Assembly: GCA_017478485.1 (NCBI GenBank)
Contig: JAFVDI010000031.1
Coordinates: forward strand, 124,001 to 188,000
Length of the DNA: 64,000 bases
Origin: Clostridiales bacterium
GTDB taxonomy: Bacteria; Bacillota; Clostridia; Saccharofermentanales; Saccharofermentanaceae
Reading direction: 5' to 3'
Shown one piece after another: positions 1,823 to 18,514 of this stretch. A program made the position numbers and the translations under genes. Below the pieces are notes generated by a model. It was not told the DNA's origin. It did no database searches and worked only from the letters and a program-made list of their open reading frames with translations. The first letter of the stretch is position 1; each line of letters opens with the position of its first letter.

Positions 1823-3403
1823 ATGAAGAACGAGGCAGGGAACAGTCTGAGACACGAGCTATCCCAGAGAGTTGGGAATTTCTGCCGTGAAAAAGGACTG
1901 CTTGACTGCGATGCGGTCATCACGGGCTGTTCCGGCGGACCGGATTCAGTAGCTCTCCTGCTCCTGCTTTCTGACCTGATCAAAGAGTCCGGAAAGCCCG
2001 TAAAACTTTACGCGATACATATTAACCATAACCTGAGGCCCGGTGACTGTGACAGGGACCAGGCTCTGACGGCCAAATTCTGCGTTTCGGTAAACGTGCC
2101 GCTCAAGATCGAGAATTTCGATGTCGAAAGGTATGCCGAAGACACCAGGATGTCCGTTGAGACGGCGGGCAGGATGCTCAGATATGAAGCCTTTGATGCC
2201 TATGCCGATGAGCTCAGGGAATCCAAGGGATACAAGGAGATCAGGATCGCGGTCGCCCACCACAAGAATGACCTTGCCGAGACCATGATGATGAACCTGT
2301 TCCGTGGGGCGGGCCTTGAGGGCCTCGTCAACCCCAAAGCCAGGACAGGCAACATAATAAGGCCTTTGCTCTGCTGCACCAAGAGCGAGCTTGAGGAAAT
2401 GCTCAGGCAGGAAAACATCAGATTTGCAGTAGACAAGACCAATCTCGAACCCGAAGGAACGCGCAATGTTTGGCGCAATGTCCTTTTCCCTGAAGTTGAG
2501 AAGAGGACCGGAGTAAATGCGTCAGGCTCGCTCAACAGAACATATTCCCTTATCGAGGATGACCTCGACTATCTTGCTTCTGAGGCTGAAAAAGCCTATG
2601 AGAGCTGCCTTTTGACGATCGGAAGAGACAAGAAAATCAAGGCTGTAGACTGTGAAAAAGCCGGGAAACTTGCGCCAGCCATGAGTTCCAGGGTAATAAG
2701 GAAACTCTGGCAGGAGACTTTTGGCAACCTGACCGATTTCGAGACTGCAAATCTCAAGCTTTGCAGCGAACTGATCGGCAGGAAGAACAAGGGCGGGGAA
2801 GTGATCCTTCCGATGCCGTTTTCGCGCAAGGCTTACAGGTTCGGAAACATATTCTGCTTTTCATCTGATCCCGCCGCAAAGGACTGCGCCTCGGCCATAG
2901 CTTCTGACATGGGCCTTATTGTTGCCGGAGGACCGGTCTCGGTCAGTATTCCGGTTCCCGGAAAATTCGGGCAGGACGGAGCGATTGCCGTAAAAATTCC
3001 TAACACGGATCTCTATATTAATATATATTTATTTGAGAATAAGGGTGATTTAGAGTATAATAATTTTTCGTGGTTTTGCCCGATCGAATATGCGCAGGAC
3101 GGTAAACTCGCACTGCTCAATTCTTCGGCGGATCCGAAGTCCCGTGTATTCGGAAAAGCCGGCGCGTCCGGTTCGAAGAAGGTCACAAGGCTCTTTACGG
3201 ACCTTAAGGTTCCTGAAAGCGCCAGAGACGGCGTTCTTTATGTTGCGCGGAATGACGGAGACAGGATCTTATGGATCCCTGGCGTTGGACACGCTTCAGG
3301 TTTCACAAGTCCGCTGAGCCGCGAAAGATACGGGCAGGCTGAAGGAAAAATGACTGCAGGAATACTTAAGATTACTTTGGAGAGACGTCAAGATGGCAAT
3401 TGA
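1823..3403 (+). CDS. tilS: tRNA(Ile)-lysidine synthase TilS
   Basis: ATP-dependent ligase that converts the wobble cytidine of the CAU-anticodon tRNA(Ile) to lysidine, so that it reads AUA. The N-terminal PP-loop motif is CSGGPDSVALLLLL near residues 34-47, followed by HINHNLRPGD and the VAHHKNDLAET segment typical of TilS. The 526-residue length includes the C-terminal substrate-binding domains (substrate-tRNA recognition). Its ATG abuts the dnaB stop codon with no spacer, and its 3' end overlaps hpt by 11 bases, giving a tight tilS-hpt-ftsH arrangement that is conserved in Firmicutes. A short AT-rich patch at 3015-3070 contrasts with the GC-richer surroundings but keeps the frame open. Confidence 0.95.
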   Translation: MKNEAGNSLRHELSQRVGNFCREKGLLDCDAVITGCSGGPDSVALLLLLSDLIKESGKPVKLYAIHINHNLRPGDCDRDQALTAKFCVSVNVPLKIENFDVERYAEDTRMSVETAGRMLRYEAFDAYADELRESKGYKEIRIAVAHHKNDLAETMMMNLFRGAGLEGLVNPKARTGNIIRPLLCCTKSELEEMLRQENIRFAVDKTNLEPEGTRNVWRNVLFPEVEKRTGVNASGSLNRTYSLIEDDLDYLASEAEKAYESCLLTIGRDKKIKAVDCEKAGKLAPAMSSRVIRKLWQETFGNLTDFETANLKLCSELIGRKNKGGEVILPMPFSRKAYRFGNIFCFSSDPAAKDCASAIASDMGLIVAGGPVSVSIPVPGKFGQDGAIAVKIPNTDLYINIYLFENKGDLEYNNFSWFCPIEYAQDGKLALLNSSADPKSRVFGKAGASGSKKVTRLFTDLKVPESARDGVLYVARNDGDRILWIPGVGHASGFTSPLSRERYGQAEGKMTAGILKITLERRQDGN

Positions 3404-3917
3404 CACATCGAGGGTTCTGGTAACACACGAACAGATCGAAGAAATGCTCACAAGGCTTTCAGATCAGCTTAACCGCGACTATGAGGGCAAGCACCTTGTA
3501 GTAGTGGGAATCCTTACGGGTGCTTTCATATTCACTTCTGACCTCGTAAGACGTCTTAATATGCCTGTTACGGTTGATTTCATGCAGGTATCTAGCTATG
3601 TGGGAGAGATCTCATCAGGTGTCCTCAAAATCAAGAAGGATCTGAGTTACGATATAGCAGGCAAGGATGTCCTCATTGTTGAAGATATCGTTGATACAGG
3701 CAGAACGCTGGAGCTCCTCATGGAGCAGCTCCGGAAGAGAAATCCTGCCTCTTTGAAGGTCTGTACGGCTTTCGATAAGCCTGCAAGGAGAGTCAACAGC
3801 TTCGTGCCCGATTACAACGGGCTTACGGTTCCGGACGAGTTCATCGTAGGCTACGGCCTCGATCTCGACGGAGAATACAGGAATTTTGACGACATAAGGA
3901 TCGTTAGAAAGGTTTAG
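3393..3917 (+). CDS. hpt: Hypoxanthine-guanine phosphoribosyltransferase
   Basis: Purine salvage enzyme that joins hypoxanthine or guanine to PRPP to give IMP or GMP. The 174-residue length is normal. The PRPP-binding loop is seen as VLIVEDIVDTGRTLELL (about residues 91-107), and the N-terminal LVVVGILTGAFIFTSDLVRR and C-terminal FIVGYGLDLDGEYRN segments are family hallmarks. It overlaps the end of tilS by 11 bases and ends 7 bases before ftsH, so it is the middle gene of a tilS-hpt-ftsH operon. Confidence 0.96.
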   Translation: MAIDTSRVLVTHEQIEEMLTRLSDQLNRDYEGKHLVVVGILTGAFIFTSDLVRRLNMPVTVDFMQVSSYVGEISSGVLKIKKDLSYDIAGKDVLIVEDIVDTGRTLELLMEQLRKRNPASLKVCTAFDKPARRVNSFVPDYNGLTVPDEFIVGYGLDLDGEYRNFDDIRIVRKV

Positions 3918-3924
3918 GTTAAGA

Positions 3925-5976
3925 ATGTCTGAAAAAGGTGAAGGAAACAGAGGACCGCGTTTCGGAGGACTGTTTTTCTATCTGATCATGCTGGCTGTGC
4001 TCGTCGTATTCTCGACGATCGTTTTCGGCGGTAATTACGGAAAGAAGGAACAGGCCAAGCTGTCTGATGTACTGGGTTATATCGATAACTCGAAGAACGA
4101 GGTCGAACTCGTTGAAGTTAAGGGAACGGTAGTTACCGTCAGATACAAGAATGAACAGGGACAGCTTGCGGAGATCTCCCAGTCGATCCCTTATGAATAC
4201 GTTGATGATCTCATTGCAAAGCTCGAGACAGCAAAATCACAGGGCAAGATCAAGGATTACAATTACACTGAGCCTTTTGACTGGTCGATAATCCTTAACA
4301 TCGGAAGCCTCCTGATGGCTGCCGTCATTATCATCGTGCTCTTCATAAACATCAGCAGACAGAGCAGGGAAGGCAGCAGCGTCTTCAGCTTCGGCAACAA
4401 CCGTGCAAGAGTCTCCGATCCCAGCAAGGTCAAGGTCAAGTTCTCTGATGTTGCAGGTTCCGTAGAAGAGAAGGAAGAGCTTTCCGAGATCGTCGACTTC
4501 CTCAAGAATCCTAAGAAATACAGGGAACTCGGTGCAAAGATCCCGAAGGGCGTTCTCCTTTACGGTGCTCCCGGTACCGGTAAGACACTCCTTGCACGTG
4601 CAGTTGCAGGTGAGGCAGGTGTTAAGTTTTTCTACATCTCAGGTTCCGACTTCGTCGAGATGCTCGTAGGTGTAGGCGCTTCACGTGTAAGATCGCTTTT
4701 CGCAGATGCAAAGAGAGAAGCTCCTTCCGTAGTCTTCATCGATGAAATCGATGCTGTCGGTCGTAAGAGAGGTGCAGGCCTCGGAGGCGGACAGGACGAG
4801 CGTGAGCAGACATTGAACCAGATCCTCGTTGAGATGGATGGTTTTGACGTTAACTCCAACATTATCGTAATGGCTGCAACAAACCGTGTGGACGTTCTCG
4901 ACCCGGCACTCTTACATCCGGGAAGATTCGACCGCCGCATCATGGTCAACATGCCTGATGCCGATGAGCGTGAAGCCATTCTCAAGATCCACGCAAAGAA
5001 CAAGCCTCTTGCTAAAGATGTAAGTCTCAGGGAAGTTGCTCTTTCAACGGTCGGCTTTACAGGTGCAGACCTTGAGAATCTCCTTAATGAGGCAGCGCTA
5101 ATGACTGCGCGTCACAACAAGAAAGAGATTTCCATGCTCGAAGTCACGGACGCAATGTTCCGTGTCCAGATGGGTCCCCAGAAGAATTCCAAGAAGCTCA
5201 GTGACAAAGTCAAGAAGCTTACTTCCTACCACGAAGCAGGCCACGCAGTCGTTTTGAGGGCGACCTCCGAGTTCGAGAAAGTTGACAGGGTTACCATCAT
5301 CCCGGCAGGTCAGGCAGGCGGATACACCGCTTATAAGCCGATCGAGGATACAGATTACTATACCGAGAAGATGCTCCTTGATACCATCAAGATGAGCCTC
5401 GGCGGACGTGCTGCAGAGGAGATCTTCTTAGGTGAGGTTTCCACCGGTGCATCCTCTGACCTCAAGCACTGCAATGACATCGCCAAGAATATGATCAAGC
5501 GTTACGGCCTTTCCAAGAAGTTCCGCAACATGGTCTTCGGTGACGATAACGATGAGGTATTCCTCGGATACTCCATGGGCCAGGTCCAGAGCTATTCCGA
5601 GCAGACCGCTGCAGCCATCGATGCCGAGATCAAGGCGATAATCGATGAGTGCTATGCTGAGACCAAACGCATCCTGATCGAGAAGCAGGCAGTAGTTGAA
5701 GGTCTTGCACAGAGACTTATGAAGAAGCTCACCGTTGACGGTCCTGACTTCGAGAAGATCTATGTCAACAACGGTGATCTTTCCGCAGTATATCCCCAGG
5801 AGTACGCCACTGCAGCTGAAGCTTCCGTGTCAGCTGAGGAGAGCGCGCCTGTTGAATCGGAGGCTGAACCTCAGGCAGAAGAACCCGCCAAGGTTGAAGA
5901 AACACCTTCCTGGCCGGCAGAAGCCGCAAACCTGGATCACGATTCACAGACTCCTGACCCCGGACCGACGGATTGA
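3925..5976 (+). CDS. ftsH: ATP-dependent zinc metalloprotease FtsH
   Basis: Membrane-anchored AAA+ protease that degrades misfolded membrane proteins and selected regulators. TM1 is at about residues 14-34, an external domain follows, and TM2 is at about 115-138. The AAA module has Walker A GAPGTGKT near 213-220, Walker B FIDEIDAVG, and the second region of homology ending HPGRFDRR. The zinc-protease motif is HEAGH near 435, with the distal aspartate in GASSDLKHC. The C-terminal tail of about 70 residues is rich in A, E and P, which is longer than needed for proteolysis. Last gene of the tilS-hpt-ftsH run; a strong hairpin terminator follows at 5997. Confidence 0.97.
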   Translation: MSEKGEGNRGPRFGGLFFYLIMLAVLVVFSTIVFGGNYGKKEQAKLSDVLGYIDNSKNEVELVEVKGTVVTVRYKNEQGQLAEISQSIPYEYVDDLIAKLETAKSQGKIKDYNYTEPFDWSIILNIGSLLMAAVIIIVLFINISRQSREGSSVFSFGNNRARVSDPSKVKVKFSDVAGSVEEKEELSEIVDFLKNPKKYRELGAKIPKGVLLYGAPGTGKTLLARAVAGEAGVKFFYISGSDFVEMLVGVGASRVRSLFADAKREAPSVVFIDEIDAVGRKRGAGLGGGQDEREQTLNQILVEMDGFDVNSNIIVMAATNRVDVLDPALLHPGRFDRRIMVNMPDADEREAILKIHAKNKPLAKDVSLREVALSTVGFTGADLENLLNEAALMTARHNKKEISMLEVTDAMFRVQMGPQKNSKKLSDKVKKLTSYHEAGHAVVLRATSEFEKVDRVTIIPAGQAGGYTAYKPIEDTDYYTEKMLLDTIKMSLGGRAAEEIFLGEVSTGASSDLKHCNDIAKNMIKRYGLSKKFRNMVFGDDNDEVFLGYSMGQVQSYSEQTAAAIDAEIKAIIDECYAETKRILIEKQAVVEGLAQRLMKKLTVDGPDFEKIYVNNGDLSAVYPQEYATAAEASVSAEESAPVESEAEPQAEEPAKVEETPSWPAEAANLDHDSQTPDPGPTD

Positions 5977-5996
5977 TTTTGGAATAACAAGTATAA

Positions 5997-6035
5997 AGGC
6001 TGCTTCAGGTTTTTGAGGCAGCCTTTTTCATTTTT
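5997..6035 (+). terminator. Rho-independent terminator after ftsH
   Basis: An 11-bp stem (AGGCTGCTTCA against TGAGGCAGCCT, with one G-U pair) encloses a 6-base loop, followed by TTTTCATTTTT. It closes the dnaB-tilS-hpt-ftsH block and separates it from the AT-rich cassette. Confidence 0.9.
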
Positions 6036-6091
6036 ATGTGGATATGCCGGCATGTTCACACATTCTTTCAAAAACCTTATTTCCGTATTTG

Positions 6092-6120
6092 TTGAATTGT
6101 ATTTGATTAAGGTGTAAAAA
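6092..6120 (+). promoter_or_regulatory. Candidate sigma-A promoter for the YidC-fusion cassette
   Basis: TTGAAT at 6092-6097, a 17-base spacer, and TAAAAA at 6115-6120. The -35 is good and the -10 is weak. It lies 29 bases upstream of the start codon, after the ftsH terminator, so it is a reasonable promoter for the two-gene cassette. AT-richness makes chance matches likely. Confidence 0.45.
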
Positions 6121-6149
6121 TATTCTGAGATTGTTTTAAAAGGATAATT

Positions 6150-8882
6150 ATGAGTTTTCTATATAACCTTATCATCCAGCCGCTGATATTAATCTATGAT
6201 GTTCTGTTCTCGTTGTTTTACGAAATGCTCGAGAATCCTTTATCATCAGTTATTGCGTTAAGTATAGTAATCAATCTTCTGGTTCTTCCTTTATACAGGA
6301 AAGCCGATCTGATTCAGAAGGAACAGCATGAAAAAGTTCTGAAAATGAAGAAGTGGGTTGATCACATCAATAAGCATTTTCATGGTGATAAGCGTTTTAT
6401 GATGCTGTCTGCTTATTACAGAATAGAAGGATACAGTCCTGTCAGTACACTTAAAGAAGCAGTTCCGCTTTTACTTCAGATACCGTTTTTCATAGCTGCA
6501 TACAGATACATTTCATCCATTCCTTTGTTAGGCGGTACAGCCTGGGGACCGATAAAGGATCTTAGCTCTCCTGACAGATTAATAACTGCAGCTGGTTTAA
6601 CGATCAATGTACTTCCGATAATAATGACACTCATAAACCTGGTGTCCGGATTCATTTACTCTAAGAATTTGTTGTTAAGACAGAAAATTCAAATTTATGG
6701 ATTGGCATTGGTTTTTCTTGTGCTTTTGTATAATAGTCCGTCGGGGCTGGTTATTTACTGGATCATGAACAATATATTCTCTTTATGTAAGAATATTTAT
6801 TATCTGAAACTTCAGAAGCACAGACAATATATCAATGTCATTCTGTCATTTATGCTGGTTGTTTTTGTCATCGTTGAAATGTCATTATTTAAGATCGACA
6901 GACCGAGTGACGTTTTATTATCTGAGGTCATGATAGCATATGCCGTTGTTAACATGATAATTACGGCTATGCAGATCAAGCAAACTAAGCTGCCCCGTTC
7001 ATTAGAATGGGTGAGTTCACTGTTTGCGGAATGTGACAGGAAGACTATTATCTACAGGATTCTATTACCGGAATTATGTCTTGTGATGCTTCTTGGTTTT
7101 TATATTCCATCTAAAGTAATATCCTCTTCTCCGCTGGAATTTATCAGGTTGGCTGATGGCAGTTTTCAATCTGATCTTCTGATTTATCCTGCGGTTGTAT
7201 ATACAGGATTAATTCTTATCTGGACTACAGTCATGATTCTCTCAAGAGAGGGAAAGAAACGCCAGTTGATGATATTCGGTCTTTGGGCGGTACTTGGAGC
7301 GGCATTATTTAATCAGTTTATAACAAAAGCCGATACGGATTCATTATATTCAGATCTGACTTTTGACGTCAGCCTTAATTATTCACAATCTGTAATTGTG
7401 GTTAATGTGATATTAAGTATAGTTGCTGCTGTTATTTTGGTATTCTTTCCGATTAAAACAAAGAAGTTGTACAAGCATATTTCAGTTGTACTGTGCGCCG
7501 CTTTGTTTTCATTATTTGTGTTGAATATCGTTAAGATCAATAAAGAGTTGAAAGAATCAGAAGTTTTGAAAACTGTGACGCAATCAACTGAATCACCGCT
7601 GACACTAAGCAAAAACGGTAAAAATGTCGTGGTTTTCATGCTGGATCGTGCCGTTGGGAGTTTTGTTCCGTATATATTTGATGAAAAGCCTGAACTGAAA
7701 GAATCTTTTAAAGGTTTTGTCTATTATCCTAATACAGTATCTTTTGGCTTGAAGACCAATTATGGTGCACCTGCGCTTTTTGGCGGATACGAATATTCTC
7801 CATATGAAATGGACAAGCGTAATAATGAACTGTTAGTTGATAAGCATAATGAAGCTCTTAAAGTTATGCCTGTAATGTTTATGAAAGAAGGATACCGCGT
7901 TACAGTCTGTGATCCGCCATATGCTAACTATAAGGATATTCCGGACTTGTCAATATATGACGAGTACCCTGAGATAAATGCATACAATCTTACCGGTAAA
8001 TATACCGAAAAACTGAATCTTGAAAATGTTGAAGTAAGACAGAAGCATAATTTCATGTTATATGGTTTTTTCAGAACAGCACCGCTTTGCTTGCGCAAGA
8101 TTATTTATGATCACGGACGATATCTTTCCATGAACAGCCGTTCAAGGAGCGGATATACGACAACGATGCTTGATTCTTACAGTGTTTTATGGAATCTGAA
8201 CAGTATTACTTCTGTGTATGATTCTGAACAAGGAAGTTTCCTGATGCTGCAGAATGCTACACCTCATAATCCGACATTGCTAAATCCGCCTGATTATGCG
8301 GTTGATGGAAGCCCGGCGAATTTTTATCAGAAGTATTCTGATCTGGTCCATGAGGGCAGAGTTATGAAGATTGAGAACCAAACTCAAAGGAGTCATTACT
8401 GTATTAACGTGGCTACTTATCAGGCAGTTGCAAAGTGGCTTGATTATCTTAGAGAGGATGGTGTTTATGACAATACCAGGATCATCTTTGTTGCCGATCA
8501 TGGCTATAATCTTGAACAGTTTCCCGATATTATTCATCCTTTGGGTTTTGATGTTGAAGCCGTTAATCCGCTATTGATGGTTAAAGATTTCAATTCGAAT
8601 GGTGAATTTAAAACGGATAACACTTTCATGACTAATGCAGATGTTGCTACTTTGGCTTCTAAAGGTGTTATTAAAGAACCCAAGAATCCGTTTACAGGTG
8701 TTCCAATCAATGACAGTTTGAAACAGAATGGACCTATTATCGTTACTGATTCATTGAATTATATGGTCGCATTGAATAATGGAACCACATATGACCTTGA
8801 TGGCGGCAAGTGGTGGCTGGTTCACGACAATATATTTGATTTGAAAAACTGGTCGTTAATGGATAAGGAGGGAGCTGCATGA
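6150..8882 (+). CDS. YidC/Oxa1-like membrane domain fused to an alkaline-phosphatase-superfamily (phosphoglycerol-transferase-like) domain
   Basis: A 910-residue two-part protein. Residues 1 to about 225 resemble YidC/Oxa1 insertases: a TM segment ending VLPLYRKADLIQKEQ, a helical cytoplasmic loop, LKEAVPLLLQIPFFIAAYRY, and a TM ending in the hallmark SPSGLVIYWIMNNIFSL. Residues about 225-460 add several TM helices. From about 489 a soluble, probably extracytoplasmic domain begins with VVVFMLDRA (metal-ligand Asp), then KTNYGAP near 535 (candidate nucleophile Thr) and FVADHGYN near 782 (metal ligands Asp-His), the layout of sulfatase/LtaS-type enzymes. Aligned by eye to E. coli YidC, the conserved groove arginine (in VRGIMYPL) is Asn here (INLLVLPL), so classical insertase activity is doubtful. 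It overlaps the next gene by 4 bases. I infer a role in building or modifying a glycerophosphate-type envelope polymer. Markedly AT-rich. Confidence 0.8.
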   Translation: MSFLYNLIIQPLILIYDVLFSLFYEMLENPLSSVIALSIVINLLVLPLYRKADLIQKEQHEKVLKMKKWVDHINKHFHGDKRFMMLSAYYRIEGYSPVSTLKEAVPLLLQIPFFIAAYRYISSIPLLGGTAWGPIKDLSSPDRLITAAGLTINVLPIIMTLINLVSGFIYSKNLLLRQKIQIYGLALVFLVLLYNSPSGLVIYWIMNNIFSLCKNIYYLKLQKHRQYINVILSFMLVVFVIVEMSLFKIDRPSDVLLSEVMIAYAVVNMIITAMQIKQTKLPRSLEWVSSLFAECDRKTIIYRILLPELCLVMLLGFYIPSKVISSSPLEFIRLADGSFQSDLLIYPAVVYTGLILIWTTVMILSREGKKRQLMIFGLWAVLGAALFNQFITKADTDSLYSDLTFDVSLNYSQSVIVVNVILSIVAAVILVFFPIKTKKLYKHISVVLCAALFSLFVLNIVKINKELKESEVLKTVTQSTESPLTLSKNGKNVVVFMLDRAVGSFVPYIFDEKPELKESFKGFVYYPNTVSFGLKTNYGAPALFGGYEYSPYEMDKRNNELLVDKHNEALKVMPVMFMKEGYRVTVCDPPYANYKDIPDLSIYDEYPEINAYNLTGKYTEKLNLENVEVRQKHNFMLYGFFRTAPLCLRKIIYDHGRYLSMNSRSRSGYTTTMLDSYSVLWNLNSITSVYDSEQGSFLMLQNATPHNPTLLNPPDYAVDGSPANFYQKYSDLVHEGRVMKIENQTQRSHYCINVATYQAVAKWLDYLREDGVYDNTRIIFVADHGYNLEQFPDIIHPLGFDVEAVNPLLMVKDFNSNGEFKTDNTFMTNADVATLASKGVIKEPKNPFTGVPINDSLKQNGPIIVTDSLNYMVALNNGTTYDLDGGKWWLVHDNIFDLKNWSLMDKEGAA

Positions 8883-10105
8883 TACTTTATATTGATCCCG
8901 GTTCAGGGAGCATGCTCTTTTCCATAGCTATCGGCCTCGTATCTGTAATTTGGTTTGCGGTTCGTAAACTTTATGTGAGTTTGAAATACCGTACAGCCGG
9001 AAAAACTGATAAGAATAAAAAGGATATTGTTATTTACGGAGAAGATAAACGTTACTGGACAGCGTTTAAAGGAATCTTGGATGAATTAGAGAAGAGAAAA
9101 GTTAATGTAACATATCTTGCGGGTTCAGATGATGATCCTCTGCTTAAAGAAAAATACGAATATGTTGAATCAGAGGTAATAGGTCTTGGCAATAAGGCAT
9201 ATGCAAAGCTGAATTTCCTTAATTCGCGTATAGTCCTGGCAACTACGCCGGGATTGGATGTGTTTCAGTGGAAACGCAGCAAGGATGTGGATTTCTATGT
9301 TCATATGACGCATGCCATTGATGGCGGTACTGCTTATCAAATGTTTGGCACGCATTTTTTCGATGCTGTACTTATGTGTTCCGACATTTTTGTTCCAATT
9401 AACAGAGAACTGGAAGAAAAAAGACATTCAAAACCAAAGGAACTTATTGCTGTAGGCTGTACTTATATGGATTATCTGCTGGAAAGAAAGGAACGATTAA
9501 CTGCCAGCAGCGATCAAGAAAAAACAGATAAGATATCTGTTCTCGTTGCTCCGACTTGGGGGAGCAGCAGCATTTTGGTTAAATATGGGAGCGATTTTAT
9601 TCGTCATTTGATATCTACCGGATTTGACATTACGATCAGACCGCATCCTCAGTCATTTATCAGTGATACAGAAATTATCAACAGTTTGATGACTGAGTTT
9701 CCGGAGTCTGACATGCTTCATTGGAATAGGGATGCAGATAATTTCAGTGTTATGAAGTCTTCAGATGTACTTATTTCTGATTTTTCCGGATCCATATTTG
9801 ATTATTCGTTTGTGTTCGAAAGGCCGATACTATACACGGAGTTGACCATGGATATGTCAGAAAAGGATGAAGCATGGCTTGATGAACCTTTCTATGGTCA
9901 TGTGCTGATTCCAAAACTTGGAAAAGAACTCAAGAATGAATCATTTGGGGATTTGAAGGCTTTGATCTTGGATCTTGTAAATGATTCTGAATACCATGAT
10001 TCAATTATCTCTGCCAGAGACGAGTATTGGCAAAACAGAGGAAATGCATCAAAAACAGTTGCTGATTATCTTCTCGATAAACTTAGTGAACTAAAGAAAA
10101 CTTAG
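8879..10105 (+). CDS. CDP-glycerol:polyglycerophosphate glycerophosphotransferase-like protein (TagB/TagF family)
   Basis: A 408-residue member of the Glyphos_transf family, whose enzymes move glycerol-phosphate from CDP-glycerol onto teichoic-acid precursors. An N-terminal hydrophobic segment (about residues 8-26) may anchor it. Visible family marks are a histidine in VHMTHAIDGGTAY near 144 (the position of the catalytic His in TagF), RPHPQ near 254-258, and ISDFSGSIFDY near 299-309, equivalent to the ISDYSS-FD nucleotide-binding motif. It is shorter than polymerase TagF, closer to TagB size. Its ATG overlaps the stop of the YidC-fusion gene (ATGA), so the two are translationally coupled and likely act on one polymer. 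The precise acceptor is unknown. AT-rich like its partner. Confidence 0.85.
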   Translation: MILYIDPGSGSMLFSIAIGLVSVIWFAVRKLYVSLKYRTAGKTDKNKKDIVIYGEDKRYWTAFKGILDELEKRKVNVTYLAGSDDDPLLKEKYEYVESEVIGLGNKAYAKLNFLNSRIVLATTPGLDVFQWKRSKDVDFYVHMTHAIDGGTAYQMFGTHFFDAVLMCSDIFVPINRELEEKRHSKPKELIAVGCTYMDYLLERKERLTASSDQEKTDKISVLVAPTWGSSSILVKYGSDFIRHLISTGFDITIRPHPQSFISDTEIINSLMTEFPESDMLHWNRDADNFSVMKSSDVLISDFSGSIFDYSFVFERPILYTELTMDMSEKDEAWLDEPFYGHVLIPKLGKELKNESFGDLKALILDLVNDSEYHDSIISARDEYWQNRGNASKTVADYLLDKLSELKKT

Positions 10106-10140
10106 TCCCCAAAAACTCACTGTTATAGGATTTATCGACA

Positions 10141-10157
10141 GTGTAACAATGTTACAC
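10141..10157. promoter_or_regulatory. Palindrome upstream of the pilus promoter
   Basis: GTGTAAC and its exact reverse complement GTTACAC are separated by AAT, giving a perfect 7-bp dyad. It lies about 130 bases upstream of the pilus promoter -35 box and about 35 bases after the glycerophosphotransferase stop. No T-run follows, so it resembles a dimeric-regulator operator more than a terminator. No binding protein can be named. Confidence 0.5.
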
Positions 10158-10284
10158 AACTATTTTGCGGTTGTTTTTCGCAGTTATTATGGCAGAAAGT
10201 TTTCAAACGCCACAATCTGAAATACAGGAAGTTAACTTCTGCTTACTGTTCTCAAATTGTTTATTTAATTAACAAAAAGGTAAT

Positions 10285-10313
10285 TTGACACACTAGTTTC
10301 ACAATTCTAAAAT
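10285..10313 (+). promoter_or_regulatory. Sigma-A promoter of the type IV pilus operon
   Basis: A perfect TTGACA -35 at 10285-10290, 17-base spacer, and TAAAAT -10 at 10308-10313, 64 bases upstream of the GTG start of the first pilus gene. No terminator-like structure lies between it and that gene. The best promoter in this part of the window. Confidence 0.8.
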
Positions 10314-10376
10314 ATTAATAAGAATTAAAGACTTTTTAGGCTTTGGTTTTTAGTGGTGTTAAGGAGATTACGGTAA

Positions 10377-11918
10377 GTGGCAGCAACAAGGAACAACAAC
10401 CGTTTCAAGATCCGTAACAACGACAGGGGCATTACGCTTGTCGAGATGATCGTTGTGCTCGTAATCATGGCAATTTTGGCCGCATCAGGTATCTTTACCG
10501 GAGTTGGCTATATTAAAAGGTCGAGATTCCAAAAGAACGAAGCTAATGCAGAAATAATATACAATGCAGTTCAGACGGCTCTTCAGCAAAAAGAAAAGGC
10601 CGGAACAATTGATGGTTGGACACAAACCCTCGTTTCAACAGATCATGGTATCCCCCTTGCTAATACCGGATCGAATGAGCCACAAGATTATCCTCTTGAT
10701 ACTGCTTGGACAAAAAATGGTTTTACTAATTTTCCGGACGGAAGCAGCAAGCCGAATGATTCTGTCTTTATGCGTTATGTCCTTACTTATAATTCTGGAA
10801 ATTCCAGTACGGCCGGAACATTTCTAAAGAACCTTATTCAGCCGTATTTCTATGACGGATCAGTATTTCAGGGTACTATAACAGTAGAGTTTCTTGCCGA
10901 GAAAACACTTGACGCATATAAAAATATACATTATTCCGCGAAATGTCTTTCTGTATTTGTTAACTCTCAGGCAAAGAACGGATGGGATGGTGCTGCAGTA
11001 ATTCCTGACAGATCCTATGATGTAAGAAGAAATGCGCTTATTGGTTATTACGAGGGCTATAAGGGTAAAACGGCTGATACGGTCTATCTCCCTCAGGCCC
11101 AGCTTGTATTAAGAAGGTTTGTTGCTGAAACCGTATATGTTACGGTAACTCCTACTCCGGGCCAGGATGGGGGCGAAGGATCAGGAGAAGGTAACGGAAG
11201 CGGTACAGGGCAACAGCCAGGTGAAGGTTCCGGATCCGGTGAAGGAGCAGGTGAAGATACACAGATTACTGAAGAAAAGCATATCTGGCTTTCTTGGAAT
11301 GCAACGCTGGATAAGGCAAACATAACAGGAACAGAGGGCAATAAGATCTATTACAAATTACAGCTTCTTAAGGGAAATGCTGTTGCTAAAGAACTTATCC
11401 TGAATGAATCCTTTATGCATAAAGGCAATTATGTTGGTGATGATGATCATTCAAAGGATTTTACTGCTCTTAAGGATTTGAGTGATGGTGCTTCTTTGCA
11501 CGGGCATGCTGTTTCAGTAGAGAAATACCCGATCGAATACGGGGATTTTTCTGAAGAAATAATCATAAAGAGCATTACCATAGATGCGCAGATATTCATA
11601 AAGCCTGACGGCGATTTCAATTATGATGCTGCCAGTGCAGAAATGATAAAAGCCAACCTGCATGATATCAAGCTGAAGTTCTCATATGTTGATAACGAAT
11701 ATAACAGCGATCACTCAAAGAAACCTGCATATTACGCATTCTCTTTTGATGTTACGGATCTGCTCACGTCTGAAATTGACGGTGCAAAGATGATGATCTA
11801 TCCGAATGATTTCAACAGCGGAACGATGGAAAATATTATTAATAAAAATGCATATATTCCTTTTAAGAGCGGCTTGCGTGTAAAGATCGATCAGGAAGAA
11901 GAACCAAGTGAACCGTAA
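10377..11918 (+). CDS. Large type IV pilin-like protein with C-terminal beta domain
   Basis: Starts at GTG, with AAGGAG 10 bases upstream. After an 18-residue basic leader comes a class III prepilin site DRG|ITLVEM, with Glu at +5, and a hydrophobic helix (VVLVIMAILAASGIF). The mature protein is about 495 residues, several times the size of a major pilin. Residues about 19-250 form a pilin-like globular region. A Gly/Ser/Glu-rich linker (about residues 262-298) joins it to a C-terminal domain of about 215 residues that I do not recognise. First gene of the pilus operon. Its size suggests a minor, perhaps tip-located, pilin rather than the main fibre subunit. The linker looks flexible and surface-exposed. 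Confidence 0.8.
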   Translation: MAATRNNNRFKIRNNDRGITLVEMIVVLVIMAILAASGIFTGVGYIKRSRFQKNEANAEIIYNAVQTALQQKEKAGTIDGWTQTLVSTDHGIPLANTGSNEPQDYPLDTAWTKNGFTNFPDGSSKPNDSVFMRYVLTYNSGNSSTAGTFLKNLIQPYFYDGSVFQGTITVEFLAEKTLDAYKNIHYSAKCLSVFVNSQAKNGWDGAAVIPDRSYDVRRNALIGYYEGYKGKTADTVYLPQAQLVLRRFVAETVYVTVTPTPGQDGGEGSGEGNGSGTGQQPGEGSGSGEGAGEDTQITEEKHIWLSWNATLDKANITGTEGNKIYYKLQLLKGNAVAKELILNESFMHKGNYVGDDDHSKDFTALKDLSDGASLHGHAVSVEKYPIEYGDFSEEIIIKSITIDAQIFIKPDGDFNYDAASAEMIKANLHDIKLKFSYVDNEYNSDHSKKPAYYAFSFDVTDLLTSEIDGAKMMIYPNDFNSGTMENIINKNAYIPFKSGLRVKIDQEEEPSEP

Positions 11919-12005
11919 TGAGTGTGTCAAGGAACAGATGAATTTTTTATGATAATATAAAAAGAATTATACAAGTGTTACTTAAAAAGGTGTTTGGAGG
12001 ATGTT

Positions 12006-12518
12006 TTGGCTAACACTACAGTAAAAAACATAGAGGGCAGTGAAGGCACCGTTTTTTACAGGCGTCGTATTGGTGATTGGATCAGACGTTATATCATTGA
12101 ACTGGTGTTTATATTCCTTGTTGTGGGATGCGTTATCACAACCACTGTTATTACTGCGGGTGCCAGAAGAGTTTTCCGCGAAGCCAAGGATGTCAGGATG
12201 GCTTTGAAGTTTGTCGGCACATCATATTACGGAGCAAACACAAGTATTTATGACTCAACAAAGGCCAATGGCCTTGCTGACGGGGCTGCTCAGGATATTG
12301 CTGATGTTTCCACCCGTAAAGGCGAGGTTTTCCTGTATGCCTGGGATGAAAAAGAATGCGTGCCCTTAATGTTTGAGTACAGAAAGGGTTTATATACTGT
12401 TACTTATATCTCTGACAGATATGAGAACAAAGGCGGTGAAGGCAGCAGTGCCAATCAGATGATGGGACACTGGGATGTTACGTATTCATTTAAGATATTG
12501 AATTACGATTCTGAATAA
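12006..12518 (+). CDS. Single-pass membrane protein of unknown function in the pilus operon
   Basis: About 170 residues: a short N-terminal cytoplasmic part ending in the basic YRRRIGDWIRRYI, one TM helix (about residues 31-53), then an extracytoplasmic domain of about 115 residues rich in beta-prone sequence. I chose TTG at 12006 because GGAGG at 11996-12000 sits five bases upstream; a TTG at 11994 would overlap that ribosome site. No prepilin motif is visible (no G-[FI]-TLVE). It lies between the first pilin gene and pilC, so a role in pilus assembly or anchoring is likely but unproven. It has no recognised homolog by eye. Confidence 0.75.
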   Translation: MANTTVKNIEGSEGTVFYRRRIGDWIRRYIIELVFIFLVVGCVITTTVITAGARRVFREAKDVRMALKFVGTSYYGANTSIYDSTKANGLADGAAQDIADVSTRKGEVFLYAWDEKECVPLMFEYRKGLYTVTYISDRYENKGGEGSSANQMMGHWDVTYSFKILNYDSE

Positions 12519-12537
12519 TAGTAGAGAGGAATAACAT

Positions 12538-13734
12538 ATGCCGGAATTTAAATATCGGGCACAGGATCAAAACGGCAAGATAATTAAAGGACGTACTGAT
12601 GCGCCCGATAGTTCTGCGCTTCATAAGCGTTTCCATGATGAGGGCCTGACACTTATAGACGCGACACCTGTAGTAAGAAGAGTTGCGTTAAAGCCATTAA
12701 AGAAATCACAGCTTGCTGATTTTGCCAGACAGCTTGGAACACTTACTAAAGCCGGCGTTAGTCTTGTCAGGACGCTTGAGATCATTGCTCACGATGAGTC
12801 TATAGGCACTTATGAAAGAGATATTTACCTTAAGCTCCGTGACAGGATCATTCAAGGTATACCTTTGTCAACTGCCATGGAAGAACTCGATCCGGCATTT
12901 CCGTCTCTCTTCGTATTTATGATGAAGGCTACGGAACAAACGGGTAACATTGATGATACCGCGCTTAGGTTAGCTAAGCACTATACAGAAGAAAACGAGC
13001 TTGAGCAGCAGGTTAAGAGTTCACTGACATATCCTAAGATCCTGGCAGTTCTCATAGTTCTTGTAGTTGCAGTCATTTTCGGATATGTATTACCTCAGTT
13101 TGAAGAACTGTTTGCCGAGATGCCGTCATTGCCGCTCCCTACTAGGATCCTTATGGCAATATCTGATTTCGTGGCTACAAAATGGTACATAATCATAATT
13201 GTTGCAGCTTTGGTCGTTATCTTTGGAAAGATAATAATTCAGCTTCCCGCTGTTCGCTATCAGATAGATAAGATTAAGACGAAAGGCAAATGGGGAAAGC
13301 TTACAAAGGTTATTTATTCCGCCAGATTTGCCAGGACGTTAAGTTCGCTCTATGAGGGCGGTATCCCAATCTACAATTGTGTTGAGGTTGCCAAGAGCAC
13401 CATAGGAAATGCATATGTTGAAGCTCAGTTTGATGAAGTGCTCAAGAGAGTATCCGGAGGCGCGTCTGTTTCTGATTCACTGAGGGATGTAAAGGGTTTT
13501 GTTCAAAAACTTCCTTCATCGATCAAGGTTGGCGAGGAGACAGGTCAGTTAGGTCCTATGCTCGCATCCGTTGCGGATGATCTGGATTTTTATTCCAGAC
13601 AGGCGCTTGTAAAACTTACATCATATATCGAGCCGGTCATGATCATTATCATGGCAATAATCGTTGGCTTTGTAATGATAGCGGTAATCAAGCCGATCTA
13701 TGACTCTTATTCGACAATAAGTGCAGGTGTATAA
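12538..13734 (+). CDS. pilC: Type IV pilus inner-membrane platform protein PilC (GspF family)
   Basis: A 398-residue GspF/PilC family protein that forms the membrane platform on which the assembly ATPase acts. The N-terminal FKYRAQDQNGKIIKGR segment is typical. Two tandem T2SSF domains each end in hydrophobic helices (about residues 168-188, 215-237 and 367-390). LADFARQLGTLTKAGVSLVRTLEII and its echo ARFARTLSSLYEGGIPIYNCVEVA are the paired domain starts. RBS GAGAGGA precedes the ATG. In the order pilC-pilMN-pilO-pilB the operon matches a Gram-positive T4P assembly core. Confidence 0.93.
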   Translation: MPEFKYRAQDQNGKIIKGRTDAPDSSALHKRFHDEGLTLIDATPVVRRVALKPLKKSQLADFARQLGTLTKAGVSLVRTLEIIAHDESIGTYERDIYLKLRDRIIQGIPLSTAMEELDPAFPSLFVFMMKATEQTGNIDDTALRLAKHYTEENELEQQVKSSLTYPKILAVLIVLVVAVIFGYVLPQFEELFAEMPSLPLPTRILMAISDFVATKWYIIIIVAALVVIFGKIIIQLPAVRYQIDKIKTKGKWGKLTKVIYSARFARTLSSLYEGGIPIYNCVEVAKSTIGNAYVEAQFDEVLKRVSGGASVSDSLRDVKGFVQKLPSSIKVGEETGQLGPMLASVADDLDFYSRQALVKLTSYIEPVMIIIMAIIVGFVMIAVIKPIYDSYSTISAGV

Positions 13735-13751
13735 GAAAGGTAAGAAAGCAT

Positions 13752-15245
13752 ATGTCTGTAACAGTATTTTTATCTAATACGAACATTCAGATAGTAGACG
13801 GTTCCGGCACAAATGGCGGTGCCAAAGTTAAGCGCTTGGTATCTGTCAGTGTACCGAACGGTGCCGTGCTTAATGGTGTTGTAATGGATGAGACCGCACT
13901 GGTCCTTGCCATCAAGGAGTGCTGGAAGCTCAATAAGCTTCCAAAGAGCAATGTTACGCTGATCCTGAACAGCCCTCAGCTCCGTGCCAACATTATCAAT
14001 ATGCCTCTCTTGCCTGACAAGAAGACAAATGAGTTCGTTCAGCGTGAATCAAAGGATGCCAGATTTGAGAAATCTATTTCAGCATGGTATCTGGTTGAAA
14101 AGGATGCCAAGGCGAAGACACAGAAGGTAATCTCAGAGACTGCTGATGCAAAGTTTATCAATACTTATGTTGATATATTCAATAGAGCCGGTATAAGACT
14201 TCTTGATATACATGACGGTGTAACGCTTGCGATCAATCTCCTTAAGGGTGCTACACGCAATAAAACGGTAGTTTACATGATCCTTGACGGTACATCGCTG
14301 GTTACTATCTTTTTCTCGAAGGGCCAGTATTTCTATCATTCGACAAAGAGAGTATTTAACCAGCCCGGTTCTTCGGACTTTGCCAAGGAAATATTTGGTG
14401 CTATCTCTGAGATCCGCCAGTTTGCTTCTGCCCAGAAATTGGATGATGCGATCGAAGAAATTCAGTTTGCAGGGTTAGGTGAACAGCAGGTTGTCAGGCT
14501 CTCTGACGATATGAGTGATATAGACAGCAATATCAAACTGTCAGCTGTCGTATGTCCGAGTTATGTTAAATTTAAGGAAAACTCGAAGCAGTTCCCGTAT
14601 TTTGTATATCCTATTGCCGGCATTTCCAAGATAAGCAATGTCAGGGTCGACATAATGACGGCCAATAGAAAGGCGGAGGACAAGTTCGTCAGGAGAAGGA
14701 AGGCATTAAGATGGATCCTTCCTGCAGGCGGGTTCCTTCTTATGCTTGTTCTTACTTATGCAGCACTTTTGACCGTTAATTATTTGAAACAAAGCAGGTT
14801 GAAGGAACTCAATAGAGAGAACAGCGTTCCGGCTATTCTCGAGAATGTTAACAGATACGAGAAGATCTCCAATGTCATTACCGAAGTCGGAGCAAGACAG
14901 GGCGGTTTAAACATATTGCATCAGTACCTTGATTCATATCCGATCCCCGATTATGAGGTAAACAAGATCATCAGTACCGCTGCGAATAAATACGGAGTAA
15001 CGGTCATATTTAATTCTTATAATGCCGTGAACGGAGTTTTCAGCATAACGGCACAATCTGAAGAGGTTGAAAAGATCAATCAGTTTATTGCTGAACTTAT
15101 GACGATGGATACATTTGAGAAAGTTGACTACACCGGTTATAACGCTATTAAGGTTAAAAACGGTGAAAGCGGATGGCAGATCAATGTAGTCTGCTCACTG
15201 TCTGCACGCAAGACAGAATCTGATAAAGCGGAGGCAGGTGCTTGA
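13752..15245 (+). CDS. PilM-PilN fusion-like pilus assembly protein
   Basis: A 497-residue protein in two halves. Residues 1 to about 320 have the layout of the actin-like cytoplasmic PilM (VFLSNTNIQIVDGSG near the start, a VVYMILDGTSLVTIFF strand pair near 173-190). A single TM helix at about 323-345 is followed by an external domain of about 150 residues with coiled-coil-like and ferredoxin-like character (PilN-like). This resembles GspL of type II secretion, where the same fusion occurs. It is preceded by pilC and followed at once by pilO. I infer that the protein links the cytoplasmic ATPase to the alignment complex. The PilM half is diverged and was assigned partly from position in the operon. 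Confidence 0.75.
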   Translation: MSVTVFLSNTNIQIVDGSGTNGGAKVKRLVSVSVPNGAVLNGVVMDETALVLAIKECWKLNKLPKSNVTLILNSPQLRANIINMPLLPDKKTNEFVQRESKDARFEKSISAWYLVEKDAKAKTQKVISETADAKFINTYVDIFNRAGIRLLDIHDGVTLAINLLKGATRNKTVVYMILDGTSLVTIFFSKGQYFYHSTKRVFNQPGSSDFAKEIFGAISEIRQFASAQKLDDAIEEIQFAGLGEQQVVRLSDDMSDIDSNIKLSAVVCPSYVKFKENSKQFPYFVYPIAGISKISNVRVDIMTANRKAEDKFVRRRKALRWILPAGGFLLMLVLTYAALLTVNYLKQSRLKELNRENSVPAILENVNRYEKISNVITEVGARQGGLNILHQYLDSYPIPDYEVNKIISTAANKYGVTVIFNSYNAVNGVFSITAQSEEVEKINQFIAELMTMDTFEKVDYTGYNAIKVKNGESGWQINVVCSLSARKTESDKAEAGA

Positions 15246-15247
15246 TT

Positions 15248-16036
15248 ATGAAATTTGATGCTTCTCTTAAACCCAAGGATATAAGAACTATCGGGATTGT
15301 AGTATATATAGCAATAGTTGCACTTTTTTCATGGTACATGATAAGACCTGCCGCCATGAAAACAATTGAATTGGATGACAAGATCAAGACGGCACAGGCT
15401 ACCAAACAGGAATATAAAATGAAATCTCTTCAGCTTGGAACCGCTGAGGTCCTTTACAATAAGGCTGTTACAGACATAACTGCTTCGACCAAAGATTTCT
15501 ACGACGTTATGGACAATTCCAAGATTGAAAAGATGGGAACATCATATATTCTCGGATATGGTCTTACACCTGTCGATTTCAAAGTTGATATCAGAGACGG
15601 GTCTTTTGTAAATGAATCTCCTTATACATTTGCAAAGATCAATAAAACAAAGGCTCCTGTAGAGGCTCCTGCTATTGATAAAACAACGAACATAAAAGAC
15701 AAGACTGCCATGACTGCTCTTGATGTTAAATCTCTTCAGGCTTTTTATACCCAGGCAGTAAACGGAGTAACCTCAACAGAGCCGTCTGAGGTCCAGTGTG
15801 CAAAGATTACGATCGTGGTTCAAGGTCCGCAGGATAAATGCCAGACTCTGATCAATAACATTACCAAGAAGCCTGCTATCAGAGTTACAAGCTTTTCCTG
15901 GAGTGATGCAAAGGAAATTTGGGTTGAAGATGACAAGGGCAACAAGACTCTTATGAATCCTGATTATAAGGAATTAAAGATGGATCTTCATTTCTATATG
16001 ACCGAGAAACCGAATTTCGATAATAACGAGGCATAA
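15248..16036 (+). CDS. PilO-like pilus assembly protein
   Basis: A 262-residue bitopic protein: TM helix at about residues 17-36, then a coiled-coil-prone stretch and an external domain, the size and shape of PilO. I start at ATG 15248, two bases after the stop of the previous gene; a TTG at 15242 would overlap that stop. Sequence identity to known PilO proteins is not obvious by eye, so the name rests on topology and on the order pilC, pilMN, this gene, pilB. PilO normally forms a dimeric scaffold with PilN. Confidence 0.65.
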   Translation: MKFDASLKPKDIRTIGIVVYIAIVALFSWYMIRPAAMKTIELDDKIKTAQATKQEYKMKSLQLGTAEVLYNKAVTDITASTKDFYDVMDNSKIEKMGTSYILGYGLTPVDFKVDIRDGSFVNESPYTFAKINKTKAPVEAPAIDKTTNIKDKTAMTALDVKSLQAFYTQAVNGVTSTEPSEVQCAKITIVVQGPQDKCQTLINNITKKPAIRVTSFSWSDAKEIWVEDDKGNKTLMNPDYKELKMDLHFYMTEKPNFDNNEA

Positions 16037-16039
16037 TCT

Positions 16040-17734
16040 ATGGATAACAATTCACAGGCCAGTAAGATCAGAATAGGCGATCTGCTCGTATCAGCAGGTT
16101 ATATTACTGAAACTCAGCTTAAGGAAGCTCTTACTATCCAGAAAGAGTCGCAGGGTAAGCGTGTAGGCGAGGTTCTTCAGGAGCTTGGATATGCAACTGA
16201 AAAACAGATCCTGACTGCTCTTGCCGACAGACTTGGTACTGTACTGATCGATATCTCAACATATAAGATCGATGTTGATGCGGTAAAACTTATACCTAAG
16301 CAGATGGCTGAACAGTACATCATGCTTCCTGTGGCTAACAGCGAAGGTCAGATCATCCTCGCCGTTAACGATCCTCTTAACCTCTATGCTATCGAAGATA
16401 TCAGGCAGACGATCGGTATGCCTGTTGATACTGTTCTTGCAGAACTGGAACCGCTGAAGAGTGCTATCGAATATCATTACGCAGAGATCAAGGCAAAGGC
16501 GGCTGCCGAGAATGCAAACATCAATGCTACCGGTATGGATGTTGACGAGCTCGTTATCGATACCAGCGCGGGTGCCGATGATGCTCCTATCATCAACCTT
16601 GTTAACTCGCTCTTGGATAAGGCATTTTCGGATAACGCTTCAGATATTCACATCGAACCTTTTGAACGTAATGTCATGGTCAGGATGCGTATCGATGGCA
16701 CCCTTCTTGATTACATTACATTGCAGAAGAACGTTCAGGATTCACTTGTTGCCAGAATCAAGATCATGGGCGAGATGGATATCGCAGAGCGCCGTATCCC
16801 TCAGGACGGCCACTTCAGGGTAAGGATCCAGGGACAGATCGTCAACGTCCGTGTTAACGTTATTCCTACCGTATTCGGTGAGAAGGTCGTTATGCGTCTT
16901 ATCATGTCGGTAGTTGAGATCGACCATAATGAGACATTCGGTATGGCTCAGGATGCATTTGAGAAGTTCTCTGAGATGCTCAAGATGCCTAACGGACTTA
17001 TCTATATCACGGGTCCTACGGGTTCAGGTAAGTCAACAACGCTTTATAACGCTTTGGCTTCATTGTCACATAAGCAGGTCAACATTAGTACGATCGAGGA
17101 TCCTGTCGAGAAGAACTTACCGAGACTTAATCAGGTTCAGGTACATCCGCAGGCAGGTCTTACCTTTGAGATCGGTCTAAGAGCTCTCATGCGTCAGGAC
17201 CCTGATATCATCATGGTAGGTGAAACGCGTGACGCTGAGACCGCTACAATAGCCATCAGAGCCGCCATAACGGGCCACCTCGTTCTTTCAACACTTCATA
17301 CCAATGACGCAGCCTCAACGGTTGTAAGACTCATTGACATGGGTTCTGAGCCGTATCTGTTGTCATCTGCACTTGCAGGCGTAGTTGCGCAGCGACTTGT
17401 GCGTAAGGTATGCCCTCATTGCGGCAAGATCGAGCGCCTTACGGATGCTCAGATCGAGTTTGTCGGACATGACATACCTACTGCCAAGAAGGCTGTGGGA
17501 TGTGTTCATTGTCATGGAGCAGGTTATCTTGGCCGTACTGCAATTCATGAAGTACTGGTCGTTGATAAGGAACTCCGTAAGATGGTCGCTGCCAATGCTA
17601 CGGCAGAGGAAATGAAGAAGTACGCCATAGCAAACCAGGGGATGGTAACACTCAAGCAGGCATGTATAAAGCTTGTTGAGCAGGGTATTACCACTATGGA
17701 AGAGCTTGAGCGTGTCGCATATTATGACGACTGA
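16040..17734 (+). CDS. pilB: Type IV pilus assembly ATPase PilB (GspE family)
   Basis: A 564-residue secretion ATPase that powers pilin polymerisation. The N-terminal MshEN-like domain (IGDLLVSAGYITETQLKEAL) is repeated once. The motor has Walker A GPTGSGKSTTLY near 324-335, an Asp box, Walker B (IIMVGETRDAETA) and a His box (HLVLSTLHTNDA). Zinc-binding cysteines CPHC and CVHC near 459 and 488 mark it as GspE/PilB rather than PilT. It overlaps the next gene by 11 bases. No PilT-type retraction ATPase occurs in the window. Start is ATG at 16040, 4 bases after pilO ends. Confidence 0.95.
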   Translation: MDNNSQASKIRIGDLLVSAGYITETQLKEALTIQKESQGKRVGEVLQELGYATEKQILTALADRLGTVLIDISTYKIDVDAVKLIPKQMAEQYIMLPVANSEGQIILAVNDPLNLYAIEDIRQTIGMPVDTVLAELEPLKSAIEYHYAEIKAKAAAENANINATGMDVDELVIDTSAGADDAPIINLVNSLLDKAFSDNASDIHIEPFERNVMVRMRIDGTLLDYITLQKNVQDSLVARIKIMGEMDIAERRIPQDGHFRVRIQGQIVNVRVNVIPTVFGEKVVMRLIMSVVEIDHNETFGMAQDAFEKFSEMLKMPNGLIYITGPTGSGKSTTLYNALASLSHKQVNISTIEDPVEKNLPRLNQVQVHPQAGLTFEIGLRALMRQDPDIIMVGETRDAETATIAIRAAITGHLVLSTLHTNDAASTVVRLIDMGSEPYLLSSALAGVVAQRLVRKVCPHCGKIERLTDAQIEFVGHDIPTAKKAVGCVHCHGAGYLGRTAIHEVLVVDKELRKMVAANATAEEMKKYAIANQGMVTLKQACIKLVEQGITTMEELERVAYYDD

Positions 17735-18314
17735 TAAGAAGCAGACAAATAAGTTTATTAAAGACATGGGAGCGGTTTTCACTCCCGTGTTTTATATTTT
17801 CAGTGTTGTATCTGTAGCTTCAGCCATAATCGTATGCGGTTTTGAATGGTTAACAATACTGATAGCTTTGTTTCTTATATTTTTAACCGGATGCGCTGCC
17901 TCAGATATCAATAAGGGGATAGTCCCAGATCTCTTATGTATATTAATAGCAGTGGTTGGTGTCATAAGCTTCTTTACAGAGCCGGTCAGCCTACAGAGCA
18001 TCATAAGCCACATTTGCGGTGCGCTGGTGCTTTCTGTGCCCATGCTGATAGCTGCATTGCTGGTAAAAGGCGGTTTTGGAGGCGGTGATATCAAGATGAT
18101 GGCTGCAGCAGGCCTGTTTCTAGGGCTTGACAGGACCATAATAGCCGGAATAATAGCCTTTTTAATAGCCGGAATATATGGTGTTTATATTCTGTTAACA
18201 AAAAAGAAGGGTAGCAGGGAAAATATCAAATTAGCGCCATATTTGGCTCTCGGATGTGCATTTTCAGCACTTTTTGGGGCTGTTTTTATGGAGATCCTGA
18301 GGCTGAAAATGTAG
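17724..18314 (+). CDS. Prepilin peptidase-like A24 protein without methyltransferase domain
   Basis: A 196-residue polytopic membrane protein (about six TM helices) of the A24 aspartyl prepilin-peptidase family. Both catalytic aspartates are present: in ASDINKGIVPDLL (about residue 60) and in the GxGD motif GGFGGGDIKMM (about 117). The N-terminal cytoplasmic domain with CxxC pairs, which carries N-methylation in bifunctional PilD, is absent. Start is ATG 17724, inside the end of pilB (11-base overlap, so coupled). It ends about 200 bases before pilA. A second, longer A24 gene lies at the far end of the locus with the opposite pattern of losses. Confidence 0.88.
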   Translation: MTTDKKQTNKFIKDMGAVFTPVFYIFSVVSVASAIIVCGFEWLTILIALFLIFLTGCAASDINKGIVPDLLCILIAVVGVISFFTEPVSLQSIISHICGALVLSVPMLIAALLVKGGFGGGDIKMMAAAGLFLGLDRTIIAGIIAFLIAGIYGVYILLTKKKGSRENIKLAPYLALGCAFSALFGAVFMEILRLKM

Positions 18315-18405
18315 CGTTTCCGTTTACAGACCGTTTGCAAATAAGGGGTTTTGCGGTTTCGGGTTAATAATATGTTACCCAACAATGAATTGTGGCGAAA
18401 ATGTG

Positions 18406-18434
18406 TTGAAGTTCGATTTTGGATGGGTTATAGT
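18406..18434 (+). promoter_or_regulatory. Sigma-A promoter of the major pilin gene
   Basis: TTGAAG at 18406-18411, 17-base spacer, TATAGT at 18429-18434, 80 bases upstream of the pilin ATG. The inverted pentamers GATGG and CCATC flank the -10 region, which could be a regulator contact or chance. A separate promoter here would let the main pilin be made in excess of the assembly proteins. Confidence 0.7.
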
Positions 18435-18514
18435 AAGACCATCAAGCAAGTCAAGCGAATTTGACAAAAATACAAACTCACTCAAGGGTGATACAAAACA
18501 AGGAGGTCACGGAA

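Follow-up and report, generated by a model that had tools for sequence, protein, structure and literature searches.

The 64,000-nucleotide stretch of Clostridiales bacterium DNA analysed here (the window) contains a gene in which a YidC-like membrane domain is fused, through additional membrane helices, to a catalytic domain of the alkaline phosphatase (AP) superfamily (Table 1). The next gene encodes a TagF-like enzyme, and the fusion would be the membrane half of a three-part system for surface modification. The fused LtaS-like enzyme probably decorates the cell surface with phosphate-linked groups, and its domain composition suggests that the YidC fold has been reused for passing lipid-linked material across the membrane.

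Table 1. Features of the window discussed in the text; the last row gives loci from other genomic stretches.
Feature	Position	Strand	Evidence or remark
YidC-AP fusion gene	6150..8882	+	Open frame; 910 aa plus stop codon
YidC-like domain, residues 1-226	6150..6827	+	PF02096, residues 33-218; AlphaFold2 helices
Asn42 codon, site of the basic groove residue of true YidC	6273..6275	+	Alignment of 70 fused sequences
Optional membrane-helix pair, residues 226-277	6825..6980	+	Alignment gap; AlphaFold2 helices 198-246, 252-277
Five-helix membrane module, residues 297-469	7038..7556	+	AlphaFold2 model
AP-superfamily catalytic domain, residues 485-910	7602..8879	+	Pfam Sulfatase; fold matches
Asp499, predicted metal ligand (FMLDRA)	7644..7646	+	Invariant, 70/70
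Thr536, predicted nucleophile (KTNYGAP)	7755..7757	+	Invariant, 70/70
His706, predicted active-site residue	8265..8267	+	Invariant, 70/70
Asp783-His784, predicted metal ligands (VADHGYN)	8496..8501	+	Invariant, 70/70; aligned with DHG of solved AP enzymes
TagF-like gene, 408 aa, N-terminal membrane anchor	8879..10105	+	PF04464, 34 bits (cut-off 22.1)
YidC-TagF examples	L182 8042-10096; L186 6841-8763; L212 6982-8904; others		Often near a separate AP gene

The first-pass annotation had described a single 910-residue frame joining a YidC-type domain, extra membrane helices and an AP domain, and the frame is indeed open over exactly the tabulated interval. An AlphaFold2 model of the protein, built on an alignment of 70 sequences (mean pLDDT 89.9, pTM 0.84), begins with an amphipathic helix followed by five YidC membrane helices with a cytoplasmic hairpin, which together make up residues 1-226; seven further membrane helices lead to the AP domain. 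The concern that the N-terminal half might match no YidC profile can be set aside, as Pfam PF02096 (60KD_IMP) matches it at 80.7 bits (E 1.5e-22), above the gathering cut-off. The score against TIGR03592 is 80.9 bits, slightly below the cut-off of 84.3. Profile comparison of each half had been proposed; a profile of 70 fusion relatives recovers solved YidC structures at E 1e-10, in line with the expectation for the first half, while the match to LtaS expected for the second is weaker. As the AP domain fills the fold-search ranking for the whole model, the assignment of the YidC half rests on sequence profiles rather than on fold search.

The insertase fold is intact in both the sequence and the model, with the cytoplasmic hairpin and the Pro-Ser-Gly...Tyr-Trp...Asn motif retained. 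Nevertheless, the fused domains differ from the YidC/Oxa1/Alb3 insertases, with which they share these features, in being joined to an enzyme and in lacking the basic residue of the groove. At this site Asn is found in 63 of the 70 fused domains, Ser in 5, Thr in 1, Gln in 1 and a basic residue in none, whereas Lys or Arg is present in 16 of the 17 stand-alone YidC proteins whose first membrane helix is represented, and the host's own YidC has Arg. Other positions, for example S38, T160, N163, Y194, N207 and K214, are fixed otherwise than in true YidC. In a tree built from 30 fused domains and 31 stand-alone ones, two badly extracted rows among the latter having very long branches, all 30 fused domains fall on one side of a single branch (support 92/83; 95% of bootstraps). 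Judged from their sequences, the fused domains are a distinct YidC subfamily. The absence of a basic residue from the groove is a sign of divergence from the insertases, and says nothing of what took the place of their function.

The TagF-like gene shares 4 bases with the end of the fusion gene. Its product belongs, like the TagF, TarL and Cps3D polymerases, to the CDP-glycerol glycerophosphotransferase superfamily (Cps3D match, E 7e-7), and conserved catalytic-type histidines, H145 and H256, are invariant in 26 TagF-like sequences. Unlike those polymerases, the proteins found with the fusions are short and single-domain with an N-terminal membrane anchor, or are fused directly to YidC. Recurrence beside teichoic-type genes had been predicted, and among 128 fusions read with their surroundings, some of them the same genome entered through two collections, a TagF-like gene directly adjoins 86 on the same strand, in either order and mostly at a spacing of -4 to +15 nucleotides. 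At about one third of fusions, including the orthologue in genome G009 described below, there is no adjacent TagF-like gene. Beyond the pair itself the neighbouring genes vary, which suggests that the two genes make up a self-contained cassette. One TagF-like partner (L088, 10705-12870) carries an additional C-terminal part of about 300 aa, with one membrane helix and Ig-like-looking sequence.

Searching the window's family with a YidC profile brought to light a second type of long frame, in which YidC is fused to a TagF-like domain (Pfam 60KD_IMP, 87-120 bits; Glyphos_transf, 29-59 bits). The distribution of this type is patchy: it is present in 6 of the 81 genomes of that family and in approximately 16 of 298 genomes of another family, and was not found in 328 evenly drawn genomes of the phylum. 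By a raw count of proximity, in which ‘near’ means inside the fetched stretch, up to 16 kb, 14 of 22 YidC-TagF loci have near them a separate gene for membrane helices and an AP domain, several of these being directly adjacent. These stand-alone AP proteins show homology to the C-terminal part of the fusion in the window (BLASTP E 3e-10, residues 327-834). In L182, a UppP (BacA) gene lies just downstream of the YidC-TagF gene. The same three parts are therefore found in two arrangements, YidC-AP with TagF or YidC-TagF with AP, the second independent of the first. That different pairs of the same parts have been fused is strong evidence for joint action in one process, and the YidC, TagF-like and AP parts are probably one system.

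The placement of the domains relative to the membrane can be considered from the model, from which all helix counts are taken. Between the YidC part and the AP domain there are seven extra helices in the long forms and five in short fusions and paralogues (~870 aa), which in alignment lack the helix pair near residues 226-277. Both numbers are odd; thus, given the usual topology of YidC, with its cytoplasmic end, the AP domain would be extracellular in long and short forms alike. The five-helix module common to both (helices 297-326, 342-364, 369-390, 413-436 and 438-469) scores at noise level against the solved membrane domains of PbgA, MCR-1 and EptA (Z 3.8-5.2), and a fold search with the module alone found no convincing structural relative. 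A TagF-like domain fused to YidC is attached at its cytoplasmic end, and an odd number of extra helices precedes a fused AP domain; this is what one would expect of a TagF-like enzyme acting inside the cell and an AP enzyme acting outside.

It is tentatively proposed that the three parts form a headgroup relay, a reading to which we give a little less than an even chance. In the cytoplasm, the TagF-like enzyme would transfer a phosphate- or phosphonate-linked headgroup from a CDP or CMP carrier to a membrane lipid or lipid-linked glycan. The YidC-like domain, by its hydrophilic groove, would then provide a passage for the lipid headgroup through the bilayer, and outside the cell the AP domain, with Thr536 as nucleophile and D499, D783 and H784 as metal ligands, would take the group and pass it to a surface glycan or polymer. 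Several paralogues in one genome may handle different headgroups. This is the account best supported by the observed domains, conserved residues, gene linkage, two permutations and distinct YidC subfamily; its topology, reaction, donor, acceptor and transport are what we infer. The crossing through the groove is the least certain step. It leans on a report of lipid scrambling, both in vitro and in simulation, by YidC, Oxa1, Get1 and further insertases by way of this same groove (PMC10491306). The first-pass suggestion that the YidC fold had been recruited for a polymer or lipid-linked substrate gains strength from the YidC-TagF fusions, whilst transport or transfer as such is something we infer.

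The YidC domain might instead be a built-in insertase or chaperone, assisting the protein's own helices and AP domain, or co-produced proteins, and taking no part in the chemistry. This alternative is on balance unlikely. In its favour are the intact fold, hairpin and C-terminal motif, and the Lys at the groove position in all 22 YidC domains of the YidC-TagF type. It is less easily reconciled with the loss of the basic residue in all 70 AP-fused domains, or with the ordinary YidC that fusion-bearing genomes also retain. Moreover, the YidC-TagF proteins carry a cytoplasmic enzyme and no translocated domain, such that self-insertion is hard to invoke, and LtaS/EptA-type enzymes are not known to need a dedicated insertase.

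It is also rather unlikely that the YidC domain is a mere scaffold, docking the TagF-like and AP enzymes at the membrane while another protein flips the lipid. The two permutations and the operon linkage do speak of association and not of transport. However, among distant fusion members the YidC domain is the most conserved of all parts, at about 50% identity as against 20-25% for the middle helices, and has invariant polar residues within its membrane helices, T160, N163 and N207 among them, which together suggest more than anchoring.

In the AP half, Pfam Sulfatase (PF00884) matches residues 492-790 at 28 bits (E 1.8e-6), above the gathering cut-off, and the motifs singled out in the first-pass annotation are present and conserved, bearing out an AP-superfamily domain with transferase-type catalytic residues. 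The fold matches include choline sulfatase (Z 20.9), LtaP (20.4), PbgA (19.9) and LtaS (19.2), and many hydrolases reach equal scores; as the structural matches span the whole superfamily, fold alone leaves the reaction undecided. The nucleophile site reads T-N-x-x-P with an invariant Thr, and the C/S-x-P-x-R motif of formylglycine sulfatases and phosphonate monoester hydrolases is absent, which rules out a formylglycine sulfatase. In this respect the predicted active site matches the LtaS/EptA class and not the sulfatases, and the AP half looks like a transferase. As in LtaS/LtaP and EptA/MCR, membrane helices precede an AP domain, here predicted to be extracellular, with a predicted Thr nucleophile and Asp/His ligands; the fusion differs in its added N-terminal YidC domain and in its low sequence identity to these enzymes (10-15%). 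The first metal ligand is Asp in the fusion and Glu in LtaS and EptA.

A hydrolase, either a phosphodiesterase or an enzyme cleaving lipid headgroups for phosphorus salvage, is an improbable alternative for this domain. Members of the superfamily switch readily between hydrolysis and transfer, and phosphonate monoester hydrolases are among the best profile matches. Nevertheless, the linked genes are biosynthetic (TagF-like, PEP mutase, cytidylyltransferases), the neighbours that could be recognised show no link to uptake or C-P lyase genes, and the formylglycine motif is missing at the nucleophile.

The neighbouring genes offer clues to the chemical group concerned. Adjoining some fusions are genes for PEP mutase-cytidylyltransferase, phosphonopyruvate decarboxylase and AEP transaminase, each above its NCBIfam equivalog cut-off; at some loci an iron alcohol dehydrogenase is found instead. 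A nucleotidyltransferase fused to a CobD-like decarboxylase, which could make a CDP-amino-alcohol, also occurs near fusions. In the window's family a PEP mutase is present in 62 of the 67 genomes that have a fusion and in 4 of the 14 that have none. Of 64 PEP mutase genes, 25 are no more than 10 kb away from a listed fusion, a figure that in one genus is 16 of 17; all of these counts are inflated by shared ancestry. The link is seen with two PEP mutase architectures and in at least two bacterial classes. On another contig of the window's genome (L040), a PEP mutase gene comes immediately after four clustered fusions. The stretch concerned (2692-19501, G000:C37) holds a TagF-like gene, the four YidC-AP fusions, a nucleotidyltransferase-CobD-like fusion, a nucleotidyltransferase/cytidylyltransferase/PEP mutase gene and a gene that clusters with iron alcohol dehydrogenases; it is a candidate headgroup-decoration locus.

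The first-pass annotation had spoken of a phosphoglycerol-transferase-type domain. That phosphoglycerol is the group transferred is not established; phosphonates and CDP-activated amino-alcohol phosphates are also suggested by the neighbours. Since phosphonate genes are absent beside the window's own pair, glycerol phosphate or some other CDP-linked group may be what this pair handles. The same PEP mutase-cytidylyltransferase fusions that stand beside many YidC-AP genes are known from the Pnt pathways of phosphonate tailoring with PntC-type nucleotidyltransferases (PMC6697681). The published survey of these pathways calls the later steps enigmatic, leaving the transfer reactions open, and makes no mention of YidC or of enzymes of the sulfatase type (PMC6697681).

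Relatives of the fusion are encoded in at least 565 places in public genomes, as scanned with one genome per species, so that the expected recurrence across Clostridia is borne out in several families. The hosts include Lachnospiraceae, Butyrivibrio, Oscillospiraceae/Ruminococcaceae, Saccharofermentans and the Negativicute Schwartzia succinivorans, mainly in rumen and gut genomes. That the fusion is an assembly chimera or a gene-calling artefact is scarcely credible: metagenome assemblies supply most members, yet the recurrences include the isolates Schwartzia succinivorans DSM 10502, Butyrivibrio sp. INlla21 and Ruminococcaceae bacterium AB4001, and a 65% identical fusion occupies the same chromosomal position in genome G009, with FtsH and TilS upstream and pilus genes downstream, which together rule out a chimera and any restriction to a single assembly.

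Distribution of the YidC-AP fusion is wide but patchy. It is found in 67 of the 81 genomes of the window's GTDB family (two of five genera), in 16 of 298 genomes of another family of the same class and in 3 of 299 in an even sample of the phylum, where a profile of the fused-type AP domain retrieved fused frames only. Seven fusions accompany a single ordinary YidC in the window's genome. Spread on plasmids was considered and dropped, as a tblastn search of plasmids returned ordinary YidC hits alone. In L095 (14984-18737) the fusion is seemingly split into overlapping YidC and AP frames, through a frameshift, an assembly error or a genuine split; short rumen-metagenome contigs labelled Treponema or actinobacterium (L077, L080, L090) that carry fusions are probably misbinned or mislabelled.

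Directly downstream of the window's pair (10377-20000), the sequence reads as an operon resembling those for type IV pili or type II secretion, with prepilin-like proteins and a putative inner-membrane platform (12538-13734), assembly ATPase (16040-17734) and prepilin peptidase (17673-18314). A 945-aa protein (19909-22746) with a prepilin-like N-terminus followed by leucine-rich-like surface repeats is possibly a pilin-anchored surface protein.

The original observation was thus correct and even understated, as the fusion belongs to a large family and is one half of a two-way modular system. No description of a YidC-AP or YidC-TagF fusion was found in the open-access literature, a body from which subscription papers and preprints are mostly absent. 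Taken as enzymes, the parts are variants of kinds already known; what appears new is the use of YidC in a system of this sort. It is possible, if somewhat doubtful, that these genes represent an undescribed system of envelope assembly, in which YidC-type translocators of lipids or lipid-linked headgroups are fused to an outer (YidC-AP) or an inner (YidC-TagF) transferase, and to which the missing final steps in decorating gut Clostridia with phosphonate and phosphoglycerol would belong.

The established role of YidC is that of a protein insertase, and reports of lipid scrambling by insertases in vitro have prompted the question of whether any member of the family does so as its proper function. 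A large natural family in which YidC-type domains are joined, in two orders, to enzymes that transfer lipid or glycan headgroups allows that question to be put to a direct test. The phosphonate genes linked to them also make the fusions candidates for the final steps that place 2-aminoethylphosphonate and related groups on bacterial surfaces, with relevance to the phosphorus chemistry of the rumen and gut.
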